Source: Bdellovibrionales bacterium (GTDB lineage Bacteria; Bdellovibrionota; UBA1018; CAIMNF01). Taken from it: DNA of 64,000 nucleotides. The notes below the pieces were generated by a model. That model had not been told where the DNA came from. It did not search any database and was given only the letters and a program-made list of their open reading frames with translations. Positions 28,897-43,884 of this stretch are shown in pieces (the first letter of the stretch is position 1; each line of letters opens with the position of its first letter). The position numbers and the translations under genes were made by a program. The stretch lies in assembly GCA_947502835.1 (NCBI GenBank), contig CANNBJ010000001.1, positions 62,001-126,000 of the forward strand. The letters run 5' to 3'.

Positions 28897-28930
28897 CTCC
28901 TAACCTATGTCTACCAAGGAGAACATCTCA

Positions 28931-29212
28931 ATGACTAAGGCAGACCTCATCTCAATCGTTGCGCAAAAAGTGAACCTCCAAAACCGTCAGGCTGAAACGG
29001 TCGTCAATCTCGTTTTCGACATGATGTCGGACACCTTGAAGAAAGATGACCGTATTGAGATTCGCGGATTTGGTTCCTTTGTGAACCGCGTGTACGGGGC
29101 GTATGAGGGACGCAATCCCAAGACGGGAGAATTGGTCAAGGTCGAACCCAAGCGAGTGCCGTTTTTCAAAGTGGGCAAAGAACTGAAAGAAATGGTCGAC
29201 CGAAAAAAATAG
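28931..29212 (+). CDS. HU/IHF-family DNA-bending protein
   Basis: A 93-residue histone-like protein. TKADLISIVAQKVNLQNRQAETVVNLVFDMM is the helical dimer part, IRGFGSFVNRVYGAYEGRNPKTGELVKV the beta arm with the intercalating proline region, and PFFKVGKELKEMV the closing helix. ATG 28931 is preceded by AAGGAG at 9 bases; the in-frame ATG at 28907 has no ribosome-binding site. Subtype (HU versus IHF) is unclear; the GRNPKTGE segment and length resemble IHF alpha-like proteins. It lies 16 bases upstream of the outer-membrane barrel gene, so it may lead the operon that follows. Confidence 0.92.
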   Translation: MTKADLISIVAQKVNLQNRQAETVVNLVFDMMSDTLKKDDRIEIRGFGSFVNRVYGAYEGRNPKTGELVKVEPKRVPFFKVGKELKEMVDRKK

Positions 29213-29228
29213 ACCGGAAGTGGGTTTG

Positions 29229-29963
29229 ATGAAACTGAAGTTCTGGAGTGCGATTGCACTTCTTTTTTGTTCTCTTTGTCTTGATATCAATGCAGTTTTT
29301 GCCGCTGAGGACGATGAGTACAACTTCAGCTGGCTTGATCCTGAAAAGAAGATCTACGTACTGCAGAACCGCCGGTTTCGAAAGGCCGGGGCTGCTGAAA
29401 TCTTCGCCTTCGGCGGATTGTCCCTCGGAGATCCATACCGGACTGTGGTCCAGGTTCAGCCGAGATTCGGCTATTGGTTCACCGAATCCATGGGGTTTGA
29501 AGCCTTTTATTCCGCGCGGTTCCACTCAGTGAATAATTCGTATCTTGCGCTGGAGCAGGCGATTCCCCTCGGGGGAGCCAACTCTCCCTACATCCGCGAA
29601 GTGAAGTCGCAGGTGGGGCTGCTGTTCAACTGGGCCCCGTGGTACGCGAAGATCAATGTTTTCAATTCGATTTTGTATTTTGATTGGTATTTTTCGTTTG
29701 GCCTCGGGGCGCTGACGACTGACATTGGTCCGAAACGCAAGGATGATGCAGCCTCCGCCGCTTTTTGGACCTCCGAGAATTTGTTTGCGGTGTACCTCGG
29801 CACCGGACACCTCTTTCACTTGAGTGAACACTGGAAGGTGAGGCTCGATCTTCTTGGACATTTTTACAGTGCAGGAGTCTATACCGGGATCACGGGGGCT
29901 CCTGATGACCGGGCGATTTATTCCAATTTCGCGTTCAATCTCGGACTCGGGTACAAGTTATGA
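29229..29963 (+). CDS. Outer-membrane beta-barrel protein of a Glt/Agl-type gene set
   Basis: ATG 29229 (GTG 29220 is an alternative) opens a signal peptide (LKFWSAIALLFCSLCLDINAVFA). The mature part has alternating beta strands, for example VVQVQPRFGYWFTESMGFEAFYSARFH and WKVRLDLLGHFYSAGVYTG, and ends FAFNLGLGYKL, a typical barrel C-terminus. It resembles the outer-membrane barrel family found beside AglT/PglI proteins in myxobacteria. The stop overlaps the start of the next TPR gene by four bases. I infer an outer-membrane anchor for the TPR and FHA proteins downstream. Confidence 0.7.
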   Translation: MKLKFWSAIALLFCSLCLDINAVFAAEDDEYNFSWLDPEKKIYVLQNRRFRKAGAAEIFAFGGLSLGDPYRTVVQVQPRFGYWFTESMGFEAFYSARFHSVNNSYLALEQAIPLGGANSPYIREVKSQVGLLFNWAPWYAKINVFNSILYFDWYFSFGLGALTTDIGPKRKDDAASAAFWTSENLFAVYLGTGHLFHLSEHWKVRLDLLGHFYSAGVYTGITGAPDDRAIYSNFAFNLGLGYKL

Positions 29964-31582
29964 GGATGAGAATTTTTCTCGGTCTCGCACTGATTCAGGG
30001 AAGTGTGCTCCTGTTCGGGGGGGAGGCCCGCGCCAATTATGTCGATGTGAAGCGCGCTTTCGGCTCAGGTCAGTATTTCACTGCGGCAAGGATCGCATTC
30101 AATGATGCAAATCGCACCTCTTCTGTCCCGGAGAAATCGATGGCGTATGCATGGGTGACAGAGAGTCTGGTTCGTGCGGGGTTGGATCAGTCGGCGCTCT
30201 ATTTTTTCATTCGCACCCTTCAGTTGCAGGACCGTGCGGCCTCCCGCAAGGTGCTGGAACTCGCCCCGCTGTTCATGGATCGTGCGGGCACGGACTTCTT
30301 GAAAAAATTCCTGATCCGGTACACGCGCGCCGATGAGTATTCCCCGCGCGCGCGCAGCGCCTTTCACCTGGCAATGGCAAAAGACAAGTTGGGGAGCGGC
30401 GATTATCCGGGCGCGCTCCAGTCTGCATCGATGGTGGACCCCTCCAGTCCCTTGTATCCGCTTTCCCTTCAGCTGAAGGGGACTGCGGAACTGATGTTGG
30501 ATCAGACCCGCGAGGCCTTGATGGACTTCGAAGCCTGCGCCGAGAAAGCGGAGCAGCGCAATCTGATTGAGGCCGGATCCATCGAGGAAAGGCTCAAAAA
30601 AGAGCAGCCGGGAGCCCTCGCCGAAAAGTGGGAGGCCCTTCGCAAGGATGCAGCACGGGATCTCAAGGCCCGCTGTGTGGCAAACCAGGCCCGTGTGCTG
30701 TACGAGGCGGGGCAATTCGAGGAGGCGGACCGTGCGTATGACATGATTCCAAAGGCGAGTTTCGTTTGGACGGATACGCTTTTTGAGCACGCGTGGAGCA
30801 CCTTCGCGAAGGAGGAGTACAATCGGACCCTCGGGAAGCTCGTCTCCTACAAGAGCCCCGCGCTTCAGTTTTCCTTCAATTCCGAGGTGGATGTTCTGAT
30901 GGCGCAGGCGTATCTTTCCCTGTGCCTTTATACGGATGCGGGGCGGATCATCGAGGATTTCAACCGCAGGCTCGGGAGTCTCGCGCTGGATGTGAAGAAG
31001 TTTGTCGAGGTGAATGCCGCAAAGGATGCCCGTCCTTATTTTGCCCTCGGTCGAAGAGCCCTTCAGGACAAGCTCCACACCGAAATCGTCATGCACCGTT
31101 TTTTGAACCGTTTCGTGAGGTCACCTTATTTCCAATCCCTGTCACTTTCCCAGGATCGGGTGCTTGCCGAGAAAATCGCAATCCAGCGATTGGATGCGAT
31201 CCGGCCTGAAACCCGCACGGGGCCGGCCGCGGGATTTCCCGGCTTTTTGAATGCTGCATTGGATTGGAGGGTTCGCACGATCCAATTGCTGGGAGGGGTG
31301 TTTGTCCGCAATTCGATGATCGATCATCACCAGGTGCTCATTTCGGATCTTGAGAAGATGCAATTCATGAAAATCGACATTCTTTCCCACGAGAAGGAGA
31401 AGTTGATGCAGCCCGAAACCGCGGTGGCCTCGGAACGGAACCGTGGAAACCGGATTCCCGTACGAAGGGACGATCAACTCCTCTGGTCTTTCAACGGGGA
31501 ATTCTGGAATGATGAAATCGGCGACTATGTATTTGCGCTCGAGAGTGAGTGTGGAAAGGGAAGTGCAAGTGAGACTCCTTGA
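29960..31582 (+). CDS. Periplasmic TPR protein, GltE/AglT-like
   Basis: A 540-residue helical-repeat protein with signal peptide (IFLGLALIQGSVLLFGGEARA). Helix-turn-helix repeats are visible through residues 25-330, for example LVRAGLDQSALYFFIRTLQL, MAKDKLGSGDYPGALQSASMV and CVANQARVLYEAGQFEEADRAYDMI. The C-terminus reads LLWSFNGEFWNDEIGDYVFALESEC, which I recall as a pattern in gliding-machine TPR proteins, but I cannot verify it. It overlaps the barrel gene at its start and the next TPR gene at its end, so the three are translationally coupled. Confidence 0.65.
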   Translation: MRMRIFLGLALIQGSVLLFGGEARANYVDVKRAFGSGQYFTAARIAFNDANRTSSVPEKSMAYAWVTESLVRAGLDQSALYFFIRTLQLQDRAASRKVLELAPLFMDRAGTDFLKKFLIRYTRADEYSPRARSAFHLAMAKDKLGSGDYPGALQSASMVDPSSPLYPLSLQLKGTAELMLDQTREALMDFEACAEKAEQRNLIEAGSIEERLKKEQPGALAEKWEALRKDAARDLKARCVANQARVLYEAGQFEEADRAYDMIPKASFVWTDTLFEHAWSTFAKEEYNRTLGKLVSYKSPALQFSFNSEVDVLMAQAYLSLCLYTDAGRIIEDFNRRLGSLALDVKKFVEVNAAKDARPYFALGRRALQDKLHTEIVMHRFLNRFVRSPYFQSLSLSQDRVLAEKIAIQRLDAIRPETRTGPAAGFPGFLNAALDWRVRTIQLLGGVFVRNSMIDHHQVLISDLEKMQFMKIDILSHEKEKLMQPETAVASERNRGNRIPVRRDDQLLWSFNGEFWNDEIGDYVFALESECGKGSASETP

Positions 31583-34500
31583 TTCTCTTCGCATCCCGTG
31601 TCTGCTCATTCTTGGATTCGCGTCGGTTTCAATGGCCGCCCCCTCGGACCGCGAGTATCAGGGCGTCCAGTCGATGAAAGAGCTCCGGATCGAGAAGCTT
31701 CGGAATGAGGAGATCAAGGCGGTCAAGATGGCTCTCGGGCTCCGGAACCCGGAGAACCGGAAAAGCGAACTCTATCTCAGGCTTGCCGAACTGTACCTGG
31801 AGGCCTACCGCGCCGATTTCCTGCTCGAGGGACGAATGCACGATCAGGCGCTCAAGACCGACCCTGCCGCGCGGTTCGTGCGGGTGAGATCCCGTGAGGA
31901 TCTCCGAAACGGGATCGGTGCGGCCGAGACGATTCTGAAGCTCAACGTGAACTCGCCGAAGCTCGACCAGATCTACTTTTTCCTGGGCTACAACTACGCC
32001 GAGTATGGAGACAAGAAGAACTCCTCCCTGTATTTCAAAAAGCTCGCAACGGAGTTTCCGGAATCCGGGTTTTCCATTGAGGGGATCCGGGCGCTCGCGG
32101 ATGAGGCGTTTCAGAGCGGTGATTTCCCCGAGGCCGAACGGCAGTACGAGATCGCCATCCGGAAAACGAATGATCCGGCCCAACAGGCGCGCATCTACCA
32201 CAAATTGGCCTGGTGCTACTATCGACAGCGAAGAAGTCAGGATGCGGTCAATACCATGAAGCGTGCGATTGAGATCGCGCGGACTTCCGGAAGCGGCGAA
32301 AAGTTGCTGAGCATCCGGGAAGAGGGACTCAGAGATCTTGCCGTGTACTACGCGGAGCTCGGGCGAGTGGATGAGGCAATCGAGTACTTTCGGGACAACG
32401 CCGGCGGAAACGACAAACTCGTGAAGGTTCTTGAAAAACTCGGCAAGGAGTACGAAAGAACGGGACAGGTTGAAAAGGCAAAGCAGGTTTACGAGGTTTT
32501 GCTCCGCACCGATCAGAGGGATGAGAGCTCTTTCCGAGTGGCGGTGAAGATGGTCGACCTTGATCTTTTGAAGGAGAATTTCGAAACTGCGGCTGAACGC
32601 CTCAGGAATCTCGAAGTTCCCCGATCCTCCGAGCCCGACACCCAGCTTGCCGTGGTGAATCTGAAACGCCAGGTGCGTGCCACGGCAGTCGGAAACCACG
32701 ATCGTTACAATCGAAAGGATGACAAACGCGAAGGTCGCAAGTTTCTGGATGCTGCGGATTCGTTTTATACCATTTACCTGAACAAGTTCATTCCCTCGGA
32801 CAAGGCCGGGAAGGTCGAGCTCAACGAGATCCGGATGTATCTTGCGGATGTGAAGCGTGAGAAGGGCGAGCCCGGTGCTGCAGCCGAACTGTACAAGAAG
32901 GTGATTCAGGACAAGGACGAAAAGTATGCAAAGCAGGCCGCCCAGCTCTGGGTGGGAAGCCTGGATTCGGAGCTGAAGAATCGGCGGAAGGCGGGAGAGA
33001 AGCCCGGTTCCGAGCCATCCCTCCTTGAGCGGGACTTCATTGAGGCCTCGGATTTGCTCGAGGCTTCGATTCCCGATTCGTTTGAGTCCCGTGAGGCGCG
33101 CTACAAGGCTGCGTTTTGCCTCTCGGAATATCCCTCCGAGAAGGCTGCGGCGATCAAGCGTGCGACCTCGCTCACAAAGGACTATCCGAACCAACCCCAA
33201 GGTGTGTACGCGGCAAGGCTCTGGCTCAAGCTTGATCCATCGAAGTCCACGTACTCCGAGCTTTCCCGGGATCCCACGCTTCTTGATACCGATTTGCGCC
33301 TGAAGAGTGAGCTGAAGCGGGATCTTGAGATCACGGCGAGGAATCTCAGGGTGAGTGAGATCTCGGGGTTTGAGAAGGGCAAGGAATTCGACAAGGCCGG
33401 GAAAGCCTATGAGGAGTTCGCTCGGAATTCTGCTGGCGAAAAAGAGGCGGAAAATGCCTACATCGGAGCGATCAGCTCGTACGCCCAACAAGGGGATTCC
33501 GAACAGGTGATTCGAGTGATGAAGGAGTGGAGGGTGAGGTATCCACGAAGTGCCACCCTGGTCTCTTCCGTGAAGAGGGAGGCGACCAAGCTCCTCGTGA
33601 GAGGCTTCTTCAGCGAATCCGCGGAGCTTTTCCTCGGGATTGGAAAGCTCCTGTATGACCGGGCGAGCCTCCACGCAAGCGCGGAGCTCTTTTCCGGAGC
33701 CCTTCAGTATAAAAAAGCGATCGGTGTGTACCGGCAGATTCTTGGACTTGCACAAAATGAAGAGGAACGGGCGGGCCTGTTCCGGAAAATTGCCCTGATG
33801 TCCATTGATGACGGAGACGAAGAGGGCGTGCTCATGAACTGGAAAGAGTGCGCAGCGATGAACAGCTCTCTCAAGGCCGAGTGTTTGTCCCAGATCGGGA
33901 ACATCTATCTTGCACAGCAGGATCTCAAGCCCGCGCGGGAGAAATTCGAAAGTGTTGTCGGAATCCGCTCGGGGCCATCGCGCAAGTCCCCGTTTGTCGC
34001 TTACGCCCAGTTCCGTCTCGCGCAGCTTGCCGAGAAGGAGATGAAACGAGAGAAACTCGAGTTTCCGGCGGATCGCCTGAAAAAGGCCTATGATGCGAGG
34101 ATCGCGGAGATTACAGGGGTGTTCGGTGCCTATCAGAAGGCGGCAGGATTGGATGGTCCCTGGGGGATCGCAGCCGCGGAACGGATGGGCGACGTTGCCC
34201 TTGAGCTTTCCACCGATGTGGAGAATGCGCTCGGTGATCCGCGTGCGACCCCGGAGCTGAAGGCGGGGATGATGGAGCTTGTGACGGGCTTCAATCAAAA
34301 AGCAGTGGAACTTGCCAAGGAATCCTACCAGAAAGCCCAGAAGGAACAGCTTCTCTCGCCGGCTCTTCCCATCCTCCAGGATCGGCTTGTGGATGCGGGG
34401 GTGGGAGGCATGAAGCATTCCCAGGGGCAAAGGTCGGGAGTGAAATTGATCGGAATGGATCCCGATGGAGGGAAGCTCGGACGTGAGGAGGCGCTGAAGA

Positions 34501-35105
34501 AAGTTCGCGAAGCGCTCCTGAAGAATCTTGATGATGCCCTTGCATGGATTGATTACGGGAACCTCCTTTGGGGCTTGGGAAAGCCAGGGCTCTCGAGTGT
34601 GGCGTATGATCGCTCGCTTTCCCTCAAGGCGCGTTGGGCCGATGCGCAAAACAACCGGGCTGTGGTCATGGTAAGCGATCTCGGTCTTGAGAACTGGATT
34701 GCTGCGAATGAGGCCGTGACCCTCTGGCGAAAGGCGATCCAGGTCGAGGCAGGAAATTCCGCAGCGCTCTTCAATCTCGGGCATGTGTTCAATTATTATC
34801 GACTCTTCAATCTGGCCTTGCCGCACCTTCAAAAGGCGGCTCGCAAGGTGAGGGTTGCAGAGGTTCACGATGAGCTTGCGGTCACCTACTGGGGCCTCGG
34901 AAAGAAAACCGAGACCACGCTCAATTCAAAAAAAGCCGATTCTCTTGGACTGAGGCAGGATCGCTTTACGAAGAAGTTCCGCGAGTCCTCCCAATTGAAA
35001 GGGGAGGCATGCCTGGGGCGCTTGGGTGAGATTGCGGGTGTGCAAGAGTTGAAGGGATTTGAGCGGATTTCAGTGAACCGTATGAAACAAAGGTGTCAGA
35101 TATGA
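31569..35105 (+). CDS. Very large periplasmic TPR protein, GltD/GltI-like
   Basis: About 1178 residues. GTG at 31569, with GGGAA six bases before it, opens a signal peptide (LDSLRIPCLLILGFASVSMA); an in-frame start at 31443 would lie far inside the upstream gene. Many tetratricopeptide units run along the chain, for example LDQIYFFLGYNYAEYGDKKNSSLYFKKL, RIYHKLAWCYYRQRRSQDAV, EEGLRDLAVYYAELGRVDEAIEYF and SAALFNLGHVFNYYRLFNLALP. Only TPR arrays of this size are known from Glt-type machines and a few others. The end overlaps the next gene as ATGA. Confidence 0.75.
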   Translation: MRLLDSLRIPCLLILGFASVSMAAPSDREYQGVQSMKELRIEKLRNEEIKAVKMALGLRNPENRKSELYLRLAELYLEAYRADFLLEGRMHDQALKTDPAARFVRVRSREDLRNGIGAAETILKLNVNSPKLDQIYFFLGYNYAEYGDKKNSSLYFKKLATEFPESGFSIEGIRALADEAFQSGDFPEAERQYEIAIRKTNDPAQQARIYHKLAWCYYRQRRSQDAVNTMKRAIEIARTSGSGEKLLSIREEGLRDLAVYYAELGRVDEAIEYFRDNAGGNDKLVKVLEKLGKEYERTGQVEKAKQVYEVLLRTDQRDESSFRVAVKMVDLDLLKENFETAAERLRNLEVPRSSEPDTQLAVVNLKRQVRATAVGNHDRYNRKDDKREGRKFLDAADSFYTIYLNKFIPSDKAGKVELNEIRMYLADVKREKGEPGAAAELYKKVIQDKDEKYAKQAAQLWVGSLDSELKNRRKAGEKPGSEPSLLERDFIEASDLLEASIPDSFESREARYKAAFCLSEYPSEKAAAIKRATSLTKDYPNQPQGVYAARLWLKLDPSKSTYSELSRDPTLLDTDLRLKSELKRDLEITARNLRVSEISGFEKGKEFDKAGKAYEEFARNSAGEKEAENAYIGAISSYAQQGDSEQVIRVMKEWRVRYPRSATLVSSVKREATKLLVRGFFSESAELFLGIGKLLYDRASLHASAELFSGALQYKKAIGVYRQILGLAQNEEERAGLFRKIALMSIDDGDEEGVLMNWKECAAMNSSLKAECLSQIGNIYLAQQDLKPAREKFESVVGIRSGPSRKSPFVAYAQFRLAQLAEKEMKREKLEFPADRLKKAYDARIAEITGVFGAYQKAAGLDGPWGIAAAERMGDVALELSTDVENALGDPRATPELKAGMMELVTGFNQKAVELAKESYQKAQKEQLLSPALPILQDRLVDAGVGGMKHSQGQRSGVKLIGMDPDGGKLGREEALKKVREALLKNLDDALAWIDYGNLLWGLGKPGLSSVAYDRSLSLKARWADAQNNRAVVMVSDLGLENWIAANEAVTLWRKAIQVEAGNSAALFNLGHVFNYYRLFNLALPHLQKAARKVRVAEVHDELAVTYWGLGKKTETTLNSKKADSLGLRQDRFTKKFRESSQLKGEACLGRLGEIAGVQELKGFERISVNRMKQRCQI

Positions 35106-35380
35106 GGATGTTATTTTGCTTCGTGATGCTGTTTGCAGGAATGGCTCCGGCTTCGGGTGCGGAGGGGGCGGGTGCCCCTGCGGCAAAGGAGCCCGCAAAG
35201 AAGGTCATTTATCCTGAAAATCAGACCATTGATTTTGAAGGGTTGAGCCTTGAGGGAGAGCTCAAGACCCCGGGAGAATTTTACTTCCAGAATCGCAACC
35301 AGGAACGGTTCGATTCTTTGACGAAAAGACGTGTCAATTTCAGGCGGGAAATGCTCAGGGATTCAATCCAGAGCAACTAA
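35102..35380 (+). CDS. Small secreted protein resembling CglF
   Basis: 92 residues. ATG 35102 overlaps the previous stop (ATGA) and opens a signal peptide (MLFCFVMLFAGMAPASGA). The mature part IDFEGLSLEGELKTPGEFYFQ followed by LTKRRVNFRREML resembles the motif of CglF, a small protein needed for adventurous gliding in Myxococcus; I recall this pattern but could not test it. It sits between the TPR genes and the FHA gene, matching where such proteins occur. Confidence 0.5.
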   Translation: MRMLFCFVMLFAGMAPASGAEGAGAPAAKEPAKKVIYPENQTIDFEGLSLEGELKTPGEFYFQNRNQERFDSLTKRRVNFRREMLRDSIQSN

Positions 35381-35392
35381 GGGAGCGAAGAT

Positions 35393-37315
35393 ATGGAAGC
35401 GAATACAGAGATCAAGTCGCAGACGGCAAACGCACTGAGGGCTTCCTTTGAAGTGGAGCAGGCGGGGAAAAAGCAGAACTTCCTGATCGCAAAGGACCGG
35501 GTTGTGTTCGGGAGTGTGGAGTCCGCCGATGTCAAGCTCACGGGTGTCTCCGTATCCCCGATTCACGCGCTCCTTGAAATCAAATGGGGCGATGTGGAAA
35601 GTTCGTGTGAGGCACGACTGATTGACCTTGCGAGCCCGACCGGGGTCATTGTGAACGGAAAACCCCTTGTGAATGATCTGATCCGCTCCGGTGACCTGAT
35701 CCAGGTGGGAGATGCGATGGTCCGGTTTCGGTTCCAAAAGCCGGATGCCGGGAAGAAACTTCCCGATCAGGCGTTGCTCCTGATCGACCCGGCAACCGTC
35801 ACGCCGATCTTTGACTATCGCCCGGCAACGAAAGAGGCGCTTGAGGTGGTTTCGTCGTGGAACGGGGTGATCCTGAATGTCAGGCACTTTGTCGACGAGG
35901 AGCGGGTTTCCTTGGGCGCAAGCGGAGTCGAGGACTTTCAGATTCCCCGTGAGTTTGCGAAGAATGGAGCCCGCGATCTTGTTTCCAAACAGGGCGGGGA
36001 ATGGCTTCTCAAGCTCGATGCCACCATGAAAGGGGTTTTGTATCTTGAGGGACAGTTGCATTCGGTTGCGGAATTCCTGAAGGGCAAGGGTGGGAGTTCG
36101 GCTGTGGTTTCCATCAAGGAGAATGATTTTGTCAAAATCCAGATCGGCCTTCTCGCCTTCTACCTGAGCCGCACGGCCTCTCCTCCGGAGTTGATCCGGA
36201 AGGGGGAAGTGGTTACGGATCCATTCTTGGGGCGTACGCTCCTGACCTCACTTGCCTTGACCGCACTGTTGCTGTTCGGAGTGAGCAAAGTGGAGGTTTC
36301 CACTCCCGAGACATTGGATCTTCCTCCTGAAGTGGGTCGGATCCTGTATCACCCCGAAAAATATTCGATCAAGCGGCCTCCTCCTCTTCAGAAGAAATCA
36401 GGGGAGGATGTGAAGAAGCTGGATCCGCCGAAGAAGGTCGAGATCGACTTCACGAAGCCCAAGGAGAAAGACGGAAAAACTGCCCAAGTGCAGTCGATTC
36501 AGCCCGGAAAAAAACAGGCGGCCCAGGACAAGGCAAAAGAAGGCGCGGGCGCACGCGCGATGGGTGCGGAGGGTTCAAGAGGAGCGAAGAATGCTCCCCG
36601 GAGTTCAACGCGCCAGACGGAGGCAAAGCGAGCCTCACCGCTTCCCGGCGAAGGCAAGGGAGGAGCGATCTCCCAAAGTGCTGACAATGGAACTGTCCAG
36701 ATGATGAAGGGGGCAACAGACAAGATCCTGAACCTCATGGGAGCTTCGGGGCAGAAGCTTGGCGCCTCGGGATCCAAGATCCAGGGCTTCGGCGGGTTCT
36801 CAACTGCAGGAGCGGGAGGAGCTGCCTTGCAGGGCGGTGGGAAAGGCGGCGGTGGTGACGCGGACACCTTGCTCGGAGGAACAGGAACCGAGGGGCGTGG
36901 TGGCGGAAAAATTGGCACAGGACTCGGCCCCGAGGGAACCGGAACGGGAATCATCGGTGGAAAAACGAGGATTGATCTCAATGTGGGCGGAGGAAAAGAA
37001 ACCGTGGTGATCGGTTCGATTGATCGTGATGCGATCGACGCTGCGATCCGGGCTCATCGCGATGAGTTCCGCTATTGTTACGAGCGGGAAGTGAACTCCG
37101 GACATCCCAATCTTGCCGGGAAGATCGTGACCGCGTTTGTGATCGGTGGATCGGGAAGGGCATCCCAGCTTTCGATTGCGAGCAGTTCGATGGATAGCGC
37201 GGGAGTGGAGAAGTGCGTTCTGGATGTAATTTCCAGAATCCAGTTCCCGCAGCCCGCCGGAAACGTGCCCGTGAGCATCAAATATCCGTTTGCTTATACG
37301 AATGCGAGCAAGTGA
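35393..37315 (+). CDS. FHA-TM-AgmX/PglI-type trans-envelope protein (GltG-like)
   Basis: 640 residues that join cytoplasm and periplasm. An FHA domain (about residues 30-115; VVFGSVESADVKLTGVSVSPIHALLE and SPTGVIVNGKPLVNDLIRSGDLIQVG) would read phosphothreonine. One membrane helix follows at about 281-298 (TLLTSLALTALLLFGVSKV), then a Pro/Lys and a Gly-rich periplasmic linker (about 300-530), and a C-terminal TonB-like AgmX/PglI domain with IRAHRDEFRYCYEREVN, GKIVTAFVIGGSGRASQL and VEKCVLDVISRIQFPQP. This architecture is that of GltG (PglI) of the gliding machine. The neighbouring TPR proteins are the likely partners. Confidence 0.85.
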   Translation: MEANTEIKSQTANALRASFEVEQAGKKQNFLIAKDRVVFGSVESADVKLTGVSVSPIHALLEIKWGDVESSCEARLIDLASPTGVIVNGKPLVNDLIRSGDLIQVGDAMVRFRFQKPDAGKKLPDQALLLIDPATVTPIFDYRPATKEALEVVSSWNGVILNVRHFVDEERVSLGASGVEDFQIPREFAKNGARDLVSKQGGEWLLKLDATMKGVLYLEGQLHSVAEFLKGKGGSSAVVSIKENDFVKIQIGLLAFYLSRTASPPELIRKGEVVTDPFLGRTLLTSLALTALLLFGVSKVEVSTPETLDLPPEVGRILYHPEKYSIKRPPPLQKKSGEDVKKLDPPKKVEIDFTKPKEKDGKTAQVQSIQPGKKQAAQDKAKEGAGARAMGAEGSRGAKNAPRSSTRQTEAKRASPLPGEGKGGAISQSADNGTVQMMKGATDKILNLMGASGQKLGASGSKIQGFGGFSTAGAGGAALQGGGKGGGGDADTLLGGTGTEGRGGGKIGTGLGPEGTGTGIIGGKTRIDLNVGGGKETVVIGSIDRDAIDAAIRAHRDEFRYCYEREVNSGHPNLAGKIVTAFVIGGSGRASQLSIASSSMDSAGVEKCVLDVISRIQFPQPAGNVPVSIKYPFAYTNASK

Positions 37316-37332
37316 TCAAAATGGAGAACACC

Positions 37333-38103
37333 ATGCAAATTGAATTCAATTCGAATGAACCGAATCTGTTCCTTGCGCAAGGAGAGGGCTATGTGGGCCC
37401 GTTCCGGCCATCCGAGGTGTATGAGAAGCTGCAGAAGTCGGAAGTGAGCTGGGTGGACCACTGCTATCGTGAAGCCGAGGGCCAGTGGATGCGGCTTTGT
37501 GATCATCCGCTTTTCAAGATGCTTCAGCCCGAGGCACCGAAACCGAAACCGAAGGTTGCAGCCCCGCCACCGCCGCCCAAGGCGATGGCTCCTGCGATCA
37601 AATGGTTTCTGTTCCAAAATGAAACCCAGACCGGGCCCTATGCGGAGCCGGAGCTCAAGCGTCTGGTTCAAGTGGGGCAAGTGATGGCAGGTGCGTTTGT
37701 GTGGCAGGAGTCGTTTTCCGATTGGAAGCCGATCCATGAGATTCCCGAATTCTCCGCAGGTGCGGCAGCCCAGGCGCAGGTTCAGGTGAAGCCTGTGGAG
37801 AGAAGGTCCGCCCCGAGAAAACCACTGGTAGCCCAGATTTACCTCACCAACCAAAAAGAGATCTCTTCCGGTGTGTGCCGGGACATCAGCATCGGGGGAA
37901 TGCAGGTGCTCACTGATGCGTTGCCGGGTGTTACAGGCGAGAAAATTCGCCTGAATGTGATGCCTCCCGGATCGACCGGTCTGAAGCCTTTCGTGGCCCA
38001 AGGAGTGATTGTGCGCATTCTTGAAGACAAAAGAGGGTTCTCGTTTCGGTTCACCGACATCAATGATGACGCCCGGGCATCGATTGAAAGATACGTTTCA
38101 TGA
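37333..38103 (+). CDS. GYF-GYF-PilZ protein, likely c-di-GMP receptor
   Basis: 256 residues. ATG 37333 has GGAG six bases before; an in-frame ATG lies at 37321. Two GYF_2-type domains come first (about residues 10-62 and 92-145), each with the pattern G-x-x-GPF or GPY and a W-x-P end (QTGPYAEPELKRLVQVGQV and FVWQESFSDWKPI). A proline linker separates them. The PilZ domain (about 158-255) keeps both c-di-GMP signature parts: RRSAPRK (R-x-x-x-R) and CRDISIGGMQV (D-x-S-x-x-G). GYF domains also occur in GltJ/AgmX of gliding machines. The protein has no signal or membrane segment and would sit in the cytoplasm beside the FHA domain of the upstream gene. Confidence 0.85.
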   Translation: MQIEFNSNEPNLFLAQGEGYVGPFRPSEVYEKLQKSEVSWVDHCYREAEGQWMRLCDHPLFKMLQPEAPKPKPKVAAPPPPPKAMAPAIKWFLFQNETQTGPYAEPELKRLVQVGQVMAGAFVWQESFSDWKPIHEIPEFSAGAAAQAQVQVKPVERRSAPRKPLVAQIYLTNQKEISSGVCRDISIGGMQVLTDALPGVTGEKIRLNVMPPGSTGLKPFVAQGVIVRILEDKRGFSFRFTDINDDARASIERYVS

Positions 38104-38996
38104 TCATTCCCGAGGGGTTTCCGGGGGTACCTTCCTCCTTTGAATACCAGACCGAGGTGGCGCAATCGACGGATGGCGAACACTCCATTTTCTTCCACTG
38201 GTTCCGCAAGCGGGGAGTCGCTCCGAAGCGCTCGCTGCTTGTGATCCACGGACAGGGGGAGCATGGGGGGCGCTATCAACATTTTCCTCATTTTTTGAAG
38301 GAAGAGTATGATCTGATCCTTGCGCCGGACCTGCGGGGGCATGGACGAAGTGAGGGAGTTCGGGGACATGTGGACTCCTTTGGCGAGTACGTCGATGATG
38401 CCCTCCTTGCCTGGAATGCCCTGCGCGCCAAGACGGACCCGGGTGGAAAGAGTGATTGGTTCGGACACAGCATGGGGGGAGCGGTGAGTTTGCTTGCGGT
38501 TCAGGAATCGCAGGATCTCGGGATCCGCAATTTGATTCTCTCTTCGCCTTGTGTCGGACTCACGGTCGAGGTTCCTGTGGTGAAGGAGGTCGCCGCACGG
38601 GTGCTTTCCCGCATTTGGGGTTCCCTTCAGATGGGGACAGGCCTCAATTCGGGGTTGATGAGTCATGATCCTGCGGTGGTTGCAGCAATCAAACGGGACA
38701 GTCTCCACCATACGAAGGCAACGCCGAGGTTTTACATTGATTTCACCCGTGCGATGGAGAGGATCCGGGAGACGGAGATCCGGATTCCGTCCACCACCAG
38801 GGTCTTGTTCCAGCTTGCGGGCGATGATCGTGTGGTGAGCACGCCGGCAAGCGAAAAGGTTTTCGAAAAGCTCGTACATTCCGACAAAAAGAAGATTGTC
38901 TATGCGGGCCTCTATCATGAGATTTTCAATGAGACCGTGAAGGAGCAGGTGTTTCATGACCTGTTGACCTGGGTACGGAGCGGGAGCTCATCATGA
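38100..38996 (+). CDS. Alpha/beta hydrolase, monoacylglycerol-lipase-like
   Basis: 298 residues. The triad is Ser in DWFGHSMGGAVSLL, Asp in LAGDDRVVS and His in GLYHEIFNE, with an oxyanion segment VIHGQGEHGGRY and the DLRGHGRS motif; this matches the serine aminopeptidase/monoacylglycerol lipase group. No signal peptide, so cytoplasmic. The start overlaps the PilZ gene (ATGA) and the end overlaps pyrE, so it is in the same transcript, though its substrate and link to the envelope machine are unknown. Confidence 0.85.
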   Translation: MIIPEGFPGVPSSFEYQTEVAQSTDGEHSIFFHWFRKRGVAPKRSLLVIHGQGEHGGRYQHFPHFLKEEYDLILAPDLRGHGRSEGVRGHVDSFGEYVDDALLAWNALRAKTDPGGKSDWFGHSMGGAVSLLAVQESQDLGIRNLILSSPCVGLTVEVPVVKEVAARVLSRIWGSLQMGTGLNSGLMSHDPAVVAAIKRDSLHHTKATPRFYIDFTRAMERIRETEIRIPSTTRVLFQLAGDDRVVSTPASEKVFEKLVHSDKKKIVYAGLYHEIFNETVKEQVFHDLLTWVRSGSSS

Positions 38997-39556
38997 GAGA
39001 TCTGCTTTTGTCGATGATTGCCGGTCGGAGTTACCGTGAAGGCGACTTCACCCTCTCCTCAGGCTTGAAAAGTCCCTTCTATATCGATCTGAAGCCCACG
39101 ATCCTGCATCCGGAAGGAGCGACTCTTTTCGGGAGCATGGGCGTAGAGTGGATCCTTAAGGAGAATCTGATGTTTGACGGGGTCGGGGGGCTCACCCTGG
39201 GCGCTGATCCTTTGGTCATGGCAATCTCCCTTGCCGCCTTCAGGAAAGGGATCCTGCTTCCGGCAACCATGATTCGCAAGGAGCCGAAAAAACACGGCAC
39301 TTCCCGATTCATCGAGGGTGTTGAAAATTTCAAAAAAGGCGCACGATTTTTGGTCCTCGAGGATGTCGTCACGACCGGAGGATCCGCAGTCAAGGCAATC
39401 GAGATCTTGAGAAACGAGGGATTTGAGCCGACTCATGTGCTCTCTCTTGTGGATCGGGAATCGGGTGGACGGGAAAAGTTCAAAAGCCTGGGGGTTGAGT
39501 TTCACTCGCTTTTCACCATTTCTGATGTGACGGAATACTACAACAGGGGCCGCTGA
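38993..39556 (+). CDS. pyrE: Orotate phosphoribosyltransferase
   Basis: Makes orotidine monophosphate from orotate and PRPP. The 187 residues show the orotate loop KSPFYIDLKPTIL, KGILLPATMIRKEPKKHGTSRFIEG (catalytic lysines and flexible loop) and the PRPP signature VLEDVVTTGGSAVKA. Overlaps the hydrolase gene by 4 bases and stops 2 bases before the YkgJ gene. No other pyrimidine gene is in the window. Confidence 0.93.
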   Translation: MRDLLLSMIAGRSYREGDFTLSSGLKSPFYIDLKPTILHPEGATLFGSMGVEWILKENLMFDGVGGLTLGADPLVMAISLAAFRKGILLPATMIRKEPKKHGTSRFIEGVENFKKGARFLVLEDVVTTGGSAVKAIEILRNEGFEPTHVLSLVDRESGGREKFKSLGVEFHSLFTISDVTEYYNRGR

Positions 39557-40257: not shown

Positions 40258-40305
40258 TGCGTTACTCCTGTTACACCATCCGTTTTGAGTGATGGTTCGC
40301 CGGTT

Positions 40306-40334
40306 AAGATATCGGAAGAATCAAGAGATGACAA
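40306..40334 (-). promoter_or_regulatory. Sigma-70-type promoter of rpsT
   Basis: Read on the minus strand: TTGTCA (40334-40329), 17 bases, TATCTT (40311-40306). Distance to the ATG at 40257 is about 45 bases, leaving a short leader with a good AGGAG site. Confidence 0.6.
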
Positions 40335-40363
40335 GGGATTTTGACTATATTACTCTAGTTTCA

Positions 40364-41665
40364 ATGCGCTTCGTTTCGACATCCGTGATGCTGATTTGGG
40401 TCGTTTTCTCTCTCGGTGCCTGTTCCAGCCCGAAAAAATACATTCACGATGCCCCGCTGTTGCCGGGGATGGCACCCGGGATTCCGATTCCGAAGGAGGA
40501 TCCGGAGTCCGCCGAGGAGGGAGCCGAGATCCCCGATCTGGATCAGCCAAGCCCCTTGGCGGATGCAGCGGCTGACGAGTCGGAGGAAGAGCCGGACATC
40601 GCATCGGATCGTGTGAATCCCCATAAAAAGCGCCAAATCCCGTTTGAGTTCAACCAAAGGGTGGCTCGTTGGATCGAGTATTTTTCCCAGAAGGACCGTG
40701 AGAGGTTTCAGCGGTTTTTTGATCGCGGAGAGCCGTATCGTGAGGTGATTCAGAACATTCTCGAGGAGAACCGGGTGCCCACGGATCTCTACTATCTTGG
40801 AATGATCGAAAGCGGATTCAATGCGCATGCGAAGTCGTCTGCGAAGGCGGTGGGCGTGTGGCAGTTCATGAAAGCCACGGGCAAAAACTACGGACTGGCT
40901 GCCGATGCGTATGTGGATCAGCGTCGCGATCCGATCCGCGCAACCGAGGCGGCGGCGAGGCTGCTTCGGGATCTCTATCGGCAGTTCGATTCCTGGTATC
41001 TGGCCATGGCGGCCTACAATGCGGGACCCGGGCGGATTCGAGGTGCGATTCGCAGGGCGAAGACAAAGGATTTCTGGGAGCTTGTCGAGAAAAACCGCTT
41101 GCCTCGCGAAACCATGGACTACGTGCCCAAGTTTCTTGCGGCCCGCTATATCGGTGAGAATCCGGAATTGTTCGGTTTTTACATCAATGAGGAAAAAAAG
41201 TATCCGGATGTGGAGCTCTTTACCGTGCCGTCGCCGATCCCCTTTCAGGCGCTTGAGAACGCCTGCTCGATTCCGGAGGGCACCTTGCAGTTCGTGAATC
41301 CCCATTACCTCAAATCCCACACCCATCCCGGAAGAAGGACTGACGAGATCTGGGTTCCGGAGCAGTACCGGAAAAACATGGAGGCCAAGATTTCCGATCT
41401 GACCCGATACCGGATCACGGTCCGCCCCGAACGGAATGCCGGTGAGGAGGTTGAGCGATACTCCCGCGCGCAAGTCGTAATCGTGAAGCGCGGGGATACA
41501 TTGAAAAGCATTGCTTCCCGGCGAGGCCTCTCGGTGGCGTATCTGAAGCGTGTGAACGGATTGAAAGGTTCGACGATCCTGCCCGGCCAGAAGCTCAAGG
41601 TTTCGGCTGCGAGTTACCATCAGAGCCGCGCCCATCCGAGGAAGGGGAGAAAAAGAAGATTGTGA
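40364..41665 (+). CDS. mltD: Membrane-bound lytic murein transglycosylase D-like lipoprotein
   Basis: Cleaves the glycan strands of peptidoglycan. ATG 40364 opens a lipoprotein signal (LIWVVFSLGAC). After an acidic linker comes the SLT domain: YYLGMIESGFNAHAKSSAKAVGVWQFM (catalytic Glu in ESGF) and YLAMAAYNAGPGRIRGAIR. A C-terminal LysM module binds peptidoglycan (VVIVKRGDTLKSIASRRGLSVAYLKRVNGL). MltD proteins often have two or more LysM; here one is clear. The stop overlaps the GTG start of the next gene (GTGA), so it is linked to the TPR/barrel protein. Confidence 0.9.
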   Translation: MRFVSTSVMLIWVVFSLGACSSPKKYIHDAPLLPGMAPGIPIPKEDPESAEEGAEIPDLDQPSPLADAAADESEEEPDIASDRVNPHKKRQIPFEFNQRVARWIEYFSQKDRERFQRFFDRGEPYREVIQNILEENRVPTDLYYLGMIESGFNAHAKSSAKAVGVWQFMKATGKNYGLAADAYVDQRRDPIRATEAAARLLRDLYRQFDSWYLAMAAYNAGPGRIRGAIRRAKTKDFWELVEKNRLPRETMDYVPKFLAARYIGENPELFGFYINEEKKYPDVELFTVPSPIPFQALENACSIPEGTLQFVNPHYLKSHTHPGRRTDEIWVPEQYRKNMEAKISDLTRYRITVRPERNAGEEVERYSRAQVVIVKRGDTLKSIASRRGLSVAYLKRVNGLKGSTILPGQKLKVSAASYHQSRAHPRKGRKRRL

Positions 41666-43020
41666 AACGGATTTCAGGATTTCAATGCATCCTCATGGTT
41701 TGGTTCTTCGGGGCATTTCCACTGGCTTTCGCCGAGGACCAAGCGCGCACCCGGGCCCAGGTGAATCAGGAAGTGGTACGCACCTATGCTGCGGTGTATC
41801 TGGAGCAACGGGATTACGTTCGTGCCGAGGACGTCATCGCCCAATACCTGTTTTTGTCCACCGAGACCGGCGAGGAGGATCTTTGGCTTGATCTTGCAGG
41901 GATTCAAATGCTGGAGGGGAAGTTTCCGAATGCGTGTTTTTCCTACCGCAAGGCAAGCGATTCAAGGAGTCGGGATTTGCGGCTGCCGGCACTCTACGGA
42001 TATGCGCACTGTTTGAATCGTGTGGGTCGGATGGAAGACGCGAAAAAAGTTCTCTTGATCCTCTCCCGTGAAGAGGCACCCGAAGGAAATGCCGGTGCCC
42101 GGGCGCTCCAGTTGATGGAGAGCGGATTCATTCGGGAGAGGGAGGAGTTCCCCCCGTATTCAAAAAAGCTGAAGGGACTTTGGAGGGTGTCCGCTGCAGT
42201 GGGGGGCGGATATGATTCGAACGTTCTTCTGGTTGCGGATTCGATCGCGGCGGGAACACCGCCCTCCGGTCGGGCGAGTGCATTTGTTTCTCCCGCTCTT
42301 CAGGTTGGAAGAATCGGCCGGATCTTCAATGATCGATTCGACTCGAGATTGATCTCCATCTACACGAATTACCTTAATCCCGAGGTGGCTGCATTCAACA
42401 GCTCCTATACGCGCGCTGATTTTCAGGTGGGATCCCAACAGGTGCGGTGGGGTGTGTTTGCAGACGGTTTCTTCCTGAACCGAAGCCCGTTTCAGCTTTA
42501 TTCGTGGACGGGAGGTCTCAGTTGGTCGTTGAAGCGGGAAGAGGATGCCCATTCCAGCACCACTCTTGAGGTTCCGATACAGTTCCAGGACTTCCTTTTG
42601 GATGCAGGCGAGAATATCCGGACCGGGGGGGATCTCAAAGTCAGATACACCAAGCGGTACTCCAATGGGCCCGGGGAGCTTCTTTCTTTGCAGATTGCCC
42701 TGGATGCCCAATACACCAAGGGACGCAATTATCGTCTTTTTGGGATCGGGCTTCCGGCCTTTTACATGCGACCCACACCATGGCTCGGAAAATTCGGGTT
42801 TCTGAGTACCTTCAGTGCGGAGCTGTTCGGACAAACGTTCTATGAATCCGATGTGCGTCGACGTGACCTGTTGATGAGGGCGGGGGCGGGTCTTCTGGTT
42901 TCGATTGCCGGAGAATGGAACCTGTCCGCGGACTTCACTGTGCAGAAAAACCTTTCGAGCTTTGACTTGGCACGGTTCTCAAAAGAACTGGTCTCACTTC
43001 AATTGAGTCATCCGTTTTGA
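41662..43020 (+). CDS. TPR plus outer-membrane beta-barrel protein (SLAM/DUF560-like layout)
   Basis: 452 residues starting with GTG 41662. Signal peptide ILMVWFFGAFPLAFA, then TPR helices (about 30-150; VYLEQRDYVRAEDVIAQYL, LPALYGYAHCLNRVGRMEDAKKVLLIL), then a barrel from about 165 with RVSAAVGGGYDSNVLLVAD, the Gly-Tyr-Asp-Ser-Asn motif common in surface-lipoprotein-assembly-modifier-type barrels, and an ending LQLSHPF (C-terminal Phe). SLAM proteins carry lipoproteins to the cell surface; this one differs in details, so the role is only suggested. Follows mltD with overlap and precedes a FecR-domain protein. Confidence 0.7.
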   Translation: MKRISGFQCILMVWFFGAFPLAFAEDQARTRAQVNQEVVRTYAAVYLEQRDYVRAEDVIAQYLFLSTETGEEDLWLDLAGIQMLEGKFPNACFSYRKASDSRSRDLRLPALYGYAHCLNRVGRMEDAKKVLLILSREEAPEGNAGARALQLMESGFIREREEFPPYSKKLKGLWRVSAAVGGGYDSNVLLVADSIAAGTPPSGRASAFVSPALQVGRIGRIFNDRFDSRLISIYTNYLNPEVAAFNSSYTRADFQVGSQQVRWGVFADGFFLNRSPFQLYSWTGGLSWSLKREEDAHSSTTLEVPIQFQDFLLDAGENIRTGGDLKVRYTKRYSNGPGELLSLQIALDAQYTKGRNYRLFGIGLPAFYMRPTPWLGKFGFLSTFSAELFGQTFYESDVRRRDLLMRAGAGLLVSIAGEWNLSADFTVQKNLSSFDLARFSKELVSLQLSHPF

Positions 43021-43035
43021 AACAGGAGGCAAAGG

Positions 43036-43884
43036 ATGCAAACCATAAAATCCAGAATCATGATGCTGCTCGGATCCGTACTGTTCCATGCGTTCTGCGC
43101 GTTTGGTGAGCCTGCAACCGGAGCAAAGGTGGTGGGTCGCATCGGTTTGGTCAGCGGGAGCGTTCTTGTGGATTCGGTGAAGGTGAAAACAGGAGCCCAA
43201 GTGAAGGTAGGCTCCCTCATCGAGGTGCTTGGAGATTCAAAGGCGACATTGATTCTCGGGAAAGGCTCTGTATTCCAGATCGGCGCGGATTCCCGGATGG
43301 TGGTCGGTGAATACGGCATCACTTCTGAGCAGGAGGAGCTTGCGAACCTGGATCTGAAGTTCGGGAAAACACGAGCCCTGATTTTGAATCAGGGACCGCG
43401 ACGGGAGCTGAAAATCAGAACCCGCGCCGCAACAATGGGGGTTCGGGGTACTGAAATCTTTGTGGATTCCCCGAAGGATTTGAAAGAGCCCCTTCAATTC
43501 ATGACCATTGAGGGCCAGGCTGATGTGAGGATCGGCGAGTCAAATGCACCGATCCCTCTTCCCCAGAATCAATCCATTCGCACCTCGGGAAACGGGGATT
43601 CCCCCGGTGCTTCGTCTGATGCGCCTGTGCAAGTGTCCCAGGGGCAAATCAAGACGACTCTGAGTGAGGGAGGGCTTCCCCCGCCACCGCCACCGAGCCA
43701 AGAGGGCGGTGGGGCTCTTCCGCCACCGCCTCCGGGAGCCTCCCGGGGCATGGTGGGAGGCCTTTCCGACGGGTTTTCCATCGGATCCAGCGCTCCTGTG
43801 ACTCTGGATCCTGTTCAGGATAGGGTGTACCGGCCAAGAATTGTTCCGCAGTTTTGTAATGCGAATTCTTCGAATTGCCCATAG
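43036..43884 (+). CDS. Secreted FecR-domain protein with proline-rich tail
   Basis: 282 residues. After the signal peptide (MLLGSVLFHAFCAFG) a FecR domain occupies about residues 30-165: GRIGLVSGSVLVDS, LGDSKATLILGKGSVFQIGADSRMVV and RAATMGVRGTEIFVD. The second half is disordered with GLPPPPPPSQEGGG and PPPPPGAS. Signal-sensing FecR proteins are anti-sigma factors, but the version here lacks a membrane segment and an N-terminal cytoplasmic part, so it is probably structural, a periplasmic or surface protein. It likely works with the TPR/barrel protein upstream. Confidence 0.75.
   Translation: MQTIKSRIMMLLGSVLFHAFCAFGEPATGAKVVGRIGLVSGSVLVDSVKVKTGAQVKVGSLIEVLGDSKATLILGKGSVFQIGADSRMVVGEYGITSEQEELANLDLKFGKTRALILNQGPRRELKIRTRAATMGVRGTEIFVDSPKDLKEPLQFMTIEGQADVRIGESNAPIPLPQNQSIRTSGNGDSPGASSDAPVQVSQGQIKTTLSEGGLPPPPPPSQEGGGALPPPPPGASRGMVGGLSDGFSIGSSAPVTLDPVQDRVYRPRIVPQFCNANSSNCP

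Follow-up and report, generated by a model that had tools for sequence, protein, structure and literature searches.

A Glt/Agl-type envelope core with an adjoining GYF-GYF-PilZ gene in a Bdellovibrionales genome

Description of the locus

The stretch analysed (the window) comprises 64,000 nucleotides of the forward strand of contig CANNBJ010000001.1, positions 62,001 to 126,000, in the Bdellovibrionales bacterium assembly GCA_947502835.1 (2.73 Mb, 8 contigs, 98% complete). Nearest named relatives are Bdellovibrionales/Oligoflexia metagenome-assembled genomes; the contig search matched close relatives only. The window carries a tight plus-strand gene run encoding an HU/IHF protein, an OMP_myx_plus barrel, GltC, GltD-GltE, CglF/GltF, GltG, a GYF-GYF-PilZ protein, an alpha/beta hydrolase and PyrE (Table 1). 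Families were named by Pfam and NCBIfam profile matches, pyrE by sequence and synteny only. Block 29220-37315 is predicted to encode the core that spans the envelope in a Glt/Agl-type machine, of Bdellovibrio type and related to the gliding machine of Myxococcus. The GYF-GYF-PilZ protein next to it is a probable cytoplasmic effector of cyclic di-GMP (c-di-GMP), with binding predicted from its motifs. An earlier reading of this DNA, made from the letters alone (the sequence-only reading), had placed such a machine at 28931-38103. All the domain families that it named are present there in Pfam and NCBIfam; the unit, which it ended with the PilZ gene, continues through the hydrolase and pyrE to 39556.

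Table 1. Genes of the unit, with positions in the window
Feature	Position	Strand	Evidence
HU/IHF-family DNA-binding protein, first gene of the apparent unit	28907..29212	+	Pfam PF00216 2.8e-29
Outer-membrane beta-barrel protein, OMP_myx_plus family	29220..29963	+	NCBIfam TIGR04565 1.6e-21, 76.9 bits, above the 60-bit cut-off
GltC-like periplasmic TPR protein	29960..31582	+	NCBIfam NF033756 6.7e-27, positions 126-619 of 622, below equivalog cut-off
GltD-GltE fusion, periplasmic TPR protein	31569..35105	+	Class profile compared with separate Bdellovibrio proteins
CglF/GltF-like small exported protein	35093..35380	+	NCBIfam NF033764 1.9e-10, below equivalog cut-off
GltG-like protein	35393..37315	+	NF033760 8.7e-47; NF033768 8.4e-25, above cut-off; FHA 9.6e-8
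GYF-GYF-PilZ protein, probable c-di-GMP receptor	37321..38103	+	GYF_2 2.9e-18 in two copies; PilZ 1.2e-13, above Pfam cut-off
Alpha/beta hydrolase (Hydrolase_4 family)	38100..38996	+	PF12146 2.5e-56
Orotate phosphoribosyltransferase-like gene (PyrE)	38993..39556	+	Sequence and synteny; behind the hydrolase in many relatives

The Glt-type core

The genes for the barrel, GltC, the large tetratricopeptide repeat (TPR) protein, CglF and GltG recur in this order as one block across the class. The order is kept in many genomes, so the block is not due to chance. The larger TPR protein is a GltD-GltE fusion, because two separate Bdellovibrio proteins of 1067 and 288 amino acids match positions 91-954 and 1000-1146 of the 1203 positions of the class profile and thus cover its first and last parts. 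GltD and GltE form one fused gene throughout the class; they are separate in families f13 and f15 (labels f, L and G denote surveyed families, loci and genomes). The two periplasmic TPR proteins of the sequence-only reading are both present, but one of them is two Glt proteins in one. Because the scores of GltC, CglF and GltG fall far short of the equivalog cut-offs that NCBI set for M. xanthus, these proteins are called Glt-type, not Glt proper or orthologues. Homologues of GltC, GltD, GltE and GltG stand in one block. Group A of the M. xanthus Glt/Agl machine (GltA/B barrels, GltF) is represented by one OMP_myx_plus barrel, with the size and position of GltA/GltB (A and B are not separated), and by the CglF-like protein. 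The core set as defined by Luciano et al. (PMC3169522) is present, plus GltF and a GltA/B-type barrel. Profile matches, the five-gene order and the fusion bear out the Glt/Agl-type set proposed earlier, and the TPR and barrel proteins match Glt families. GltH, GltI and GltK were not seen in the block; the genome was not searched for them. No reading frame with both a GYF domain and an AgmX tail, as in GltJ (GYF, membrane span, AgmX tail), was found in the genome; GltJ is reported absent from Bdellovibrio too (PMC3169522). By analogy, the powering of gliding is a candidate role of the block.

GltG consists of an FHA-fold domain, a second cytoplasmic domain, one membrane helix, a Gly-rich periplasmic linker and an AgmX/PglI (TonB-like) tail. 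The core Arg of the FHA domain is Ser, Asn or Gln in 24/24 core proteins (Ser in the window protein). The site Asn is likewise replaced in all 24; the His is kept. With core Arg and Asn lost throughout, a phosphothreonine input is unlikely, and the FHA domain probably does not read phosphothreonine. The site as a whole (core Arg, Ser, His, Asn) is incomplete, and phosphothreonine sensing, one of the two inputs proposed earlier, is rejected as a shown input. In two genomes of the window's genus the GltG frame is broken by one stop codon (G010 contig 19, 14427-16292; G007 contig 307, 1031-2914), either by error or as a real split.

The GYF-GYF-PilZ protein

Both PilZ motifs, RxxxR and DxSxxG, are preserved in 40/40 class orthologues and in 11/11 members of f15; in f13 the Asp is mostly Glu. 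The Gly-Pro pairs of the GYF domains are invariant in all 40 class orthologues, and the GYF tryptophans are kept in all but one case. Conservation of both motif sets makes the protein a good candidate c-di-GMP receptor. The c-di-GMP input proposed earlier is thus upheld as far as the binding motifs go, with binding itself predicted. The first GYF domain was compared with solved structures: its best genuine match (7.1e-11) is the AgmX/GltJ domain of M. xanthus, PDB 7z3c. Ubiquitin chains among the structure matches of the GYF part were taken as noise, as only a 33-residue stretch aligned. The GYF and zinc domains of GltJ may form a switch with MglA and AglZ; a literature search for the role of the GYF domain of GltJ found nothing in the library searched.

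Other GYF/PilZ proteins at Glt-type clusters

Related proteins stand beside other Glt-type clusters. In motor-bearing clusters with a short GltG lacking the FHA domain, the neighbour is a protein of 150-240 amino acids that combines a single GYF domain with a PilZ-like domain that lacks RxxxR (L120, L143, L145, L148, L149, L153, L155, L161). The motif is missing in all 8 aligned members of this GYF-degenerate-PilZ group, and its profile matches the window family with an E-value of 1.4e-12. A class-wide, position-blind search returned 40 good matches, eight of them the search seeds; 34 have a GltG-like gene at 10 kb or less, and the contigs of the remaining six carry no listed GltG. In a second motor-bearing cluster type, the FHA-bearing GltG adjoins a PilZ protein with intact motifs (L118, L138, L139, L175, L176), and 12/18 matches of this PilZ family are likewise no more than 10 kb from a GltG-like gene. 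In two complete Bdellovibrio-type genomes (L140, L141), a Glt-type cluster has a GYF-PilZ gene immediately preceding its ExbB gene. This arrangement matches Bd1473-Bd1483; the identity with Bd1482 is by arrangement and domain content, the HD100 record not having been compared by sequence.

Proximity was assessed from Pfam matches alone in 13 genomes. A PilZ match lies within 8 kb of 10/40 GltG-like genes (2.1 expected). With window-type loci removed, the counts are 6/36 within 8 kb (1.8 expected, P 0.009) and 3/36 within 3 kb (P 0.03); because homologous clusters are not independent, these statistics overstate the evidence. Chance as the whole account of the GYF/PilZ neighbours is rejected by this proximity test and the linkage counts. 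As gene order, the recurrence of GYF/PilZ proteins at Glt-type machines in the phylum, beside genes with AgmX/PglI tails, is real. The literature search found no description of it beyond Bd1482. The pairing, which the sequence-only reading had not seen described, has a published precedent: Hobley et al. (2012; PMC3271064) named Bd1482, a PilZ gene located 5' in an operon for Bdellovibrio gliding, as a candidate receiver for DgcA.

Two further observations were made. The PilZ proteins beside the FHA-bearing GltG (L118:8159-8821, N-terminal 45 residues) share an unnamed motif, WRFVN...SA..L..LL, possibly a docking domain. On contig 2 of the window's genome (64259-66723; L119:6259-8723), two small PilZ genes come after a gene for a 539-amino-acid GYF protein, and ExbB and ExbD genes are nearby; a similar GYF protein with close PilZ genes occurs in G004, G015, G018, G020, G034 and G046, and may form a second conserved GYF and PilZ pair in the class.

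Linkage to GltG and to the hydrolase

The window-type GYF-PilZ gene adjoins the alpha/beta hydrolase gene in 40/40 class loci and GltG in 12 of the same 40. The hydrolase is also its neighbour in 10/11 loci of another class. Within the class, a GltG-like gene is found within 10 kb in 14/50 genomes, in families f1, f2 and f4 only; outside it, comparison of genomes by eye showed no linkage to GltG. The pairing with GltG is thus restricted to a lineage, three of the families surveyed. On a tree of GYF-PilZ, hydrolase and PyrE, linkage needs two changes, e.g. one gain and one loss before f5, and is therefore either an old feature, lost in part, or one that arose more than once.

These counts favour an alternative in which the GYF-GYF-PilZ protein belongs with the hydrolase (e.g. 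in c-di-GMP control of a lipase or of some other process), is unconnected with the Glt machine and came to stand beside the Glt genes through rearrangement in part of one order; the small number of tree changes fits it as well. Other evidence speaks for a tie to Glt: other GYF/PilZ proteins occur at other Glt-type clusters of the same genome and phylum far above chance, the nearest solved GYF domain is that of AgmX/GltJ, and the f13 (Bdellovibrio-type) orthologue has no hydrolase neighbour. The hydrolase alternative is a serious one, with a probability of about a third.

Motor and GTPase

The window's block contains no motor genes. The genome has 8 matches to the MotA/ExbB family, among them an ExbB-ExbD-ExbD trio on contig 6 (157379-159178). 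This trio, outside the window, has the composition of an AglRQS motor (one ExbB/TolQ-like and two ExbD/TolR-like proteins). In the ExbB tree, its ExbB groups with ExbB proteins encoded less than 10 kb from the same core in six f5 genomes, and this group adjoins ExbB proteins of linked f15 clusters. Since it groups with core-linked ExbB proteins, the contig 6 trio would drive the window's block. Two further Glt-type clusters of the genome have their own motor trios (L118, L120). A clear MglA-like GTPase, named from its sequence, is also encoded.

Absence of an adjacent motor recalls the M. xanthus Nfs sporulation complex, which has no linked motor of its own and uses AglRQS (PMC3858216). The machine might accordingly not serve gliding and might instead move a surface polymer or drive envelope remodelling, as Nfs does; Glt core genes are found in non-gliders too (PMC3169522). 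The motor is indeed unlinked in the window, yet the genome has a cognate trio, whose counterparts in relatives are close to the same core. An MglA-like gene is present, as are CglF and a GltA/B-type barrel, which also occur in the cluster judged the best Bdellovibrio gliding candidate (PMC3169522). A function other than gliding is considered less likely than not, though it keeps a real share of the probability.

Proposed role

As a whole, the findings are best explained by a Glt-type core, the contig 6 motor, and a GYF-GYF-PilZ c-di-GMP effector docking on the GltG/motor platform, an explanation held with moderate confidence. GltG would couple the AglRQS-like proton-channel motor of contig 6 to the periplasmic and outer-membrane parts, and the motor-driven core would propel the cell or material on its surface, as in M. 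xanthus. Docking of the GYF-GYF-PilZ protein would most likely be on the cytoplasmic face of the GltG/motor platform. Through it, c-di-GMP would tune assembly or activity of the machine, a role that related proteins probably play at other clusters of Glt type. We infer both the gating by c-di-GMP and the contact among the proteins.

Several points weigh against this explanation. In 36/50 class genomes the window-type gene is unlinked to GltG and paired with the hydrolase, its constant neighbour, while GltG is on another contig or 31-64 kb away; for several of these genomes the quality of the assembly makes the separation credible (e.g. G046, 9 contigs). The gene is consequently not the fixed neighbour that the sequence-only reading took it for, and does not adjoin GltG wherever both occur. 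Since it lies outside the core in most of the class, its product can be no more than a regulator acting in trans and is not an obligate component of the machine. The linkage may be plain synteny: S20, MltD and pyrE are also retained in the three linked families, so that being kept together is in itself a poor guide to function. The proline-rich stretch of GltG is periplasmic, beyond the reach of a cytoplasmic GYF domain. AlphaFold models of the cytoplasmic part of GltG and of the GYF-GYF-PilZ protein (3-4 sequences) have a mean predicted local distance difference test (pLDDT) score of 42-45, too poor for use. Finally, PlpA of M. xanthus does not bind c-di-GMP and yet regulates motility, and motility regulation by PixA did not need c-di-GMP binding by its PilZ domain (PMC8316039).

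Across the phylum, the GYF/PilZ proteins at Glt-type machines most likely act as cytoplasmic adaptors that sense, or once sensed, c-di-GMP. A broader version is put forward tentatively, as a possibility well short of even: Bdellovibrionota Glt-type machines would carry a cytoplasmic GYF-PilZ adaptor family in place of the GYF module of GltJ, with some members gated by c-di-GMP (the window type, the Bd1482-like type and the PilZ protein without GYF at clusters of the second type) and one branch keeping a dead PilZ domain for structure. In this version c-di-GMP would act on the machines and not only on gene expression, given that all three full Glt-type clusters of the genome have a protein of this kind. 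Purely structural docking adaptors, substituting in trans for the GltJ GYF domain with c-di-GMP binding dispensable or lost, are unlikely, about one chance in four: the GYF-degenerate-PilZ branch (no RxxxR in 8/8 aligned, genomic place kept in 34/40), the PlpA precedent (PMC8316039) and the GYF similarity to GltJ agree with them, but the binding motifs are kept in the window protein and its orthologues across the class, as well as in the PilZ family found with the second type of cluster.

Two tempting readings are corrected by this description, the FHA domain as phosphothreonine reader and the PilZ gene as a fixed part of the block. The GYF/PilZ family beside Glt-type machines provides a short list of candidate receptors or adaptors, individually testable. 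The pattern raises the question whether second messengers act directly on force-generating envelope machines.

Limits of the unit and neighbouring genes

The GltC-like gene start overlaps the barrel stop by 4 bases, and the hydrolase gene start overlaps the PilZ gene by 4 bases. The open reading frame (ORF) of HU opens at 28907; an ATG at 28931 is suggested by homologues. The GltD-GltE ORF opens at 31443, but a GTG start near 31569 is probable because of the signal peptide. The GYF-GYF-PilZ ORF opens at 37213; its start at 37321 lies 5 bases past the GltG stop. A promoter and terminator scan gave fewer sites than shuffled sequences, and operon limits therefore rest on gene spacing.

HU lies directly upstream of the block in 6/6 loci of the window's own family that reach that far. 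Its position as first gene thus holds for this family, but not for the others. HU as a conserved part of the machine is rejected: it leads the block in its own family only, and elsewhere (f6) stands a few kb off with MgtC. MgtC and HU immediately precede the block in the window's family, whereas in f6 (L133, L134) both follow GltG at a distance of a few kb: an old neighbourhood that has been rearranged. At 40289-43884, after S20, the window encodes a lytic transglycosylase with a LysM-like end, a TPR-plus-barrel protein and a FecR-domain protein, a group conserved in the same family.

Comparison with known systems

The glt/agl cluster Bd0828-Bd0838 of B. bacteriovorus, of which L150 and L162 have the make-up, shares with the window an outer-membrane protein, GltC, GltD, GltE, CglF and GltG (FHA and AgmX tail) in the same order. 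It differs in separate GltD and GltE, two barrels, a motor right after GltG and no attached GYF/PilZ gene. The M. xanthus Glt/Agl machine (G1, G2 and M1 clusters) has in common with the window genome the GltC, D, E, F and G families, an OMP_myx_plus barrel, an AglRQS-like motor and an MglA-like GTPase; the window differs from it in one block instead of three, absence of GltJ, the GYF-PilZ neighbour and the degenerate FHA domain.

The operon Bd1473-Bd1483 resembles the window in having a GYF-PilZ protein (Bd1482) beside a Glt-type cluster. Clusters of this type (L140, L141) differ in one GYF domain instead of two, a PilZ gene beside ExbB instead of GltG, an altered second PilZ motif (SVSENG) and a different Glt paralogue without FHA. 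The enzyme DgcA (Bd0367), which makes c-di-GMP and cyclic GMP-AMP (cGAMP), controls Bdellovibrio gliding (PMC3271064, PMC9140294), and only Bd1482 was found proposed as its receiver in the literature. Control of a Glt-type machine by c-di-GMP is thus a testable idea, partly proposed in 2012. PlpA, PixA and PixB of M. xanthus are PilZ proteins like the window protein, and affect gliding through polarity or reversals (PMC8316039); unlike it, they have no GYF domains in their described architectures. GltJ/AgmX (PDB 7z3c) carries a GYF domain that is a sequence relative of the window GYF, together with a membrane span and an AgmX tail; the window protein has neither of these and has a PilZ domain instead.
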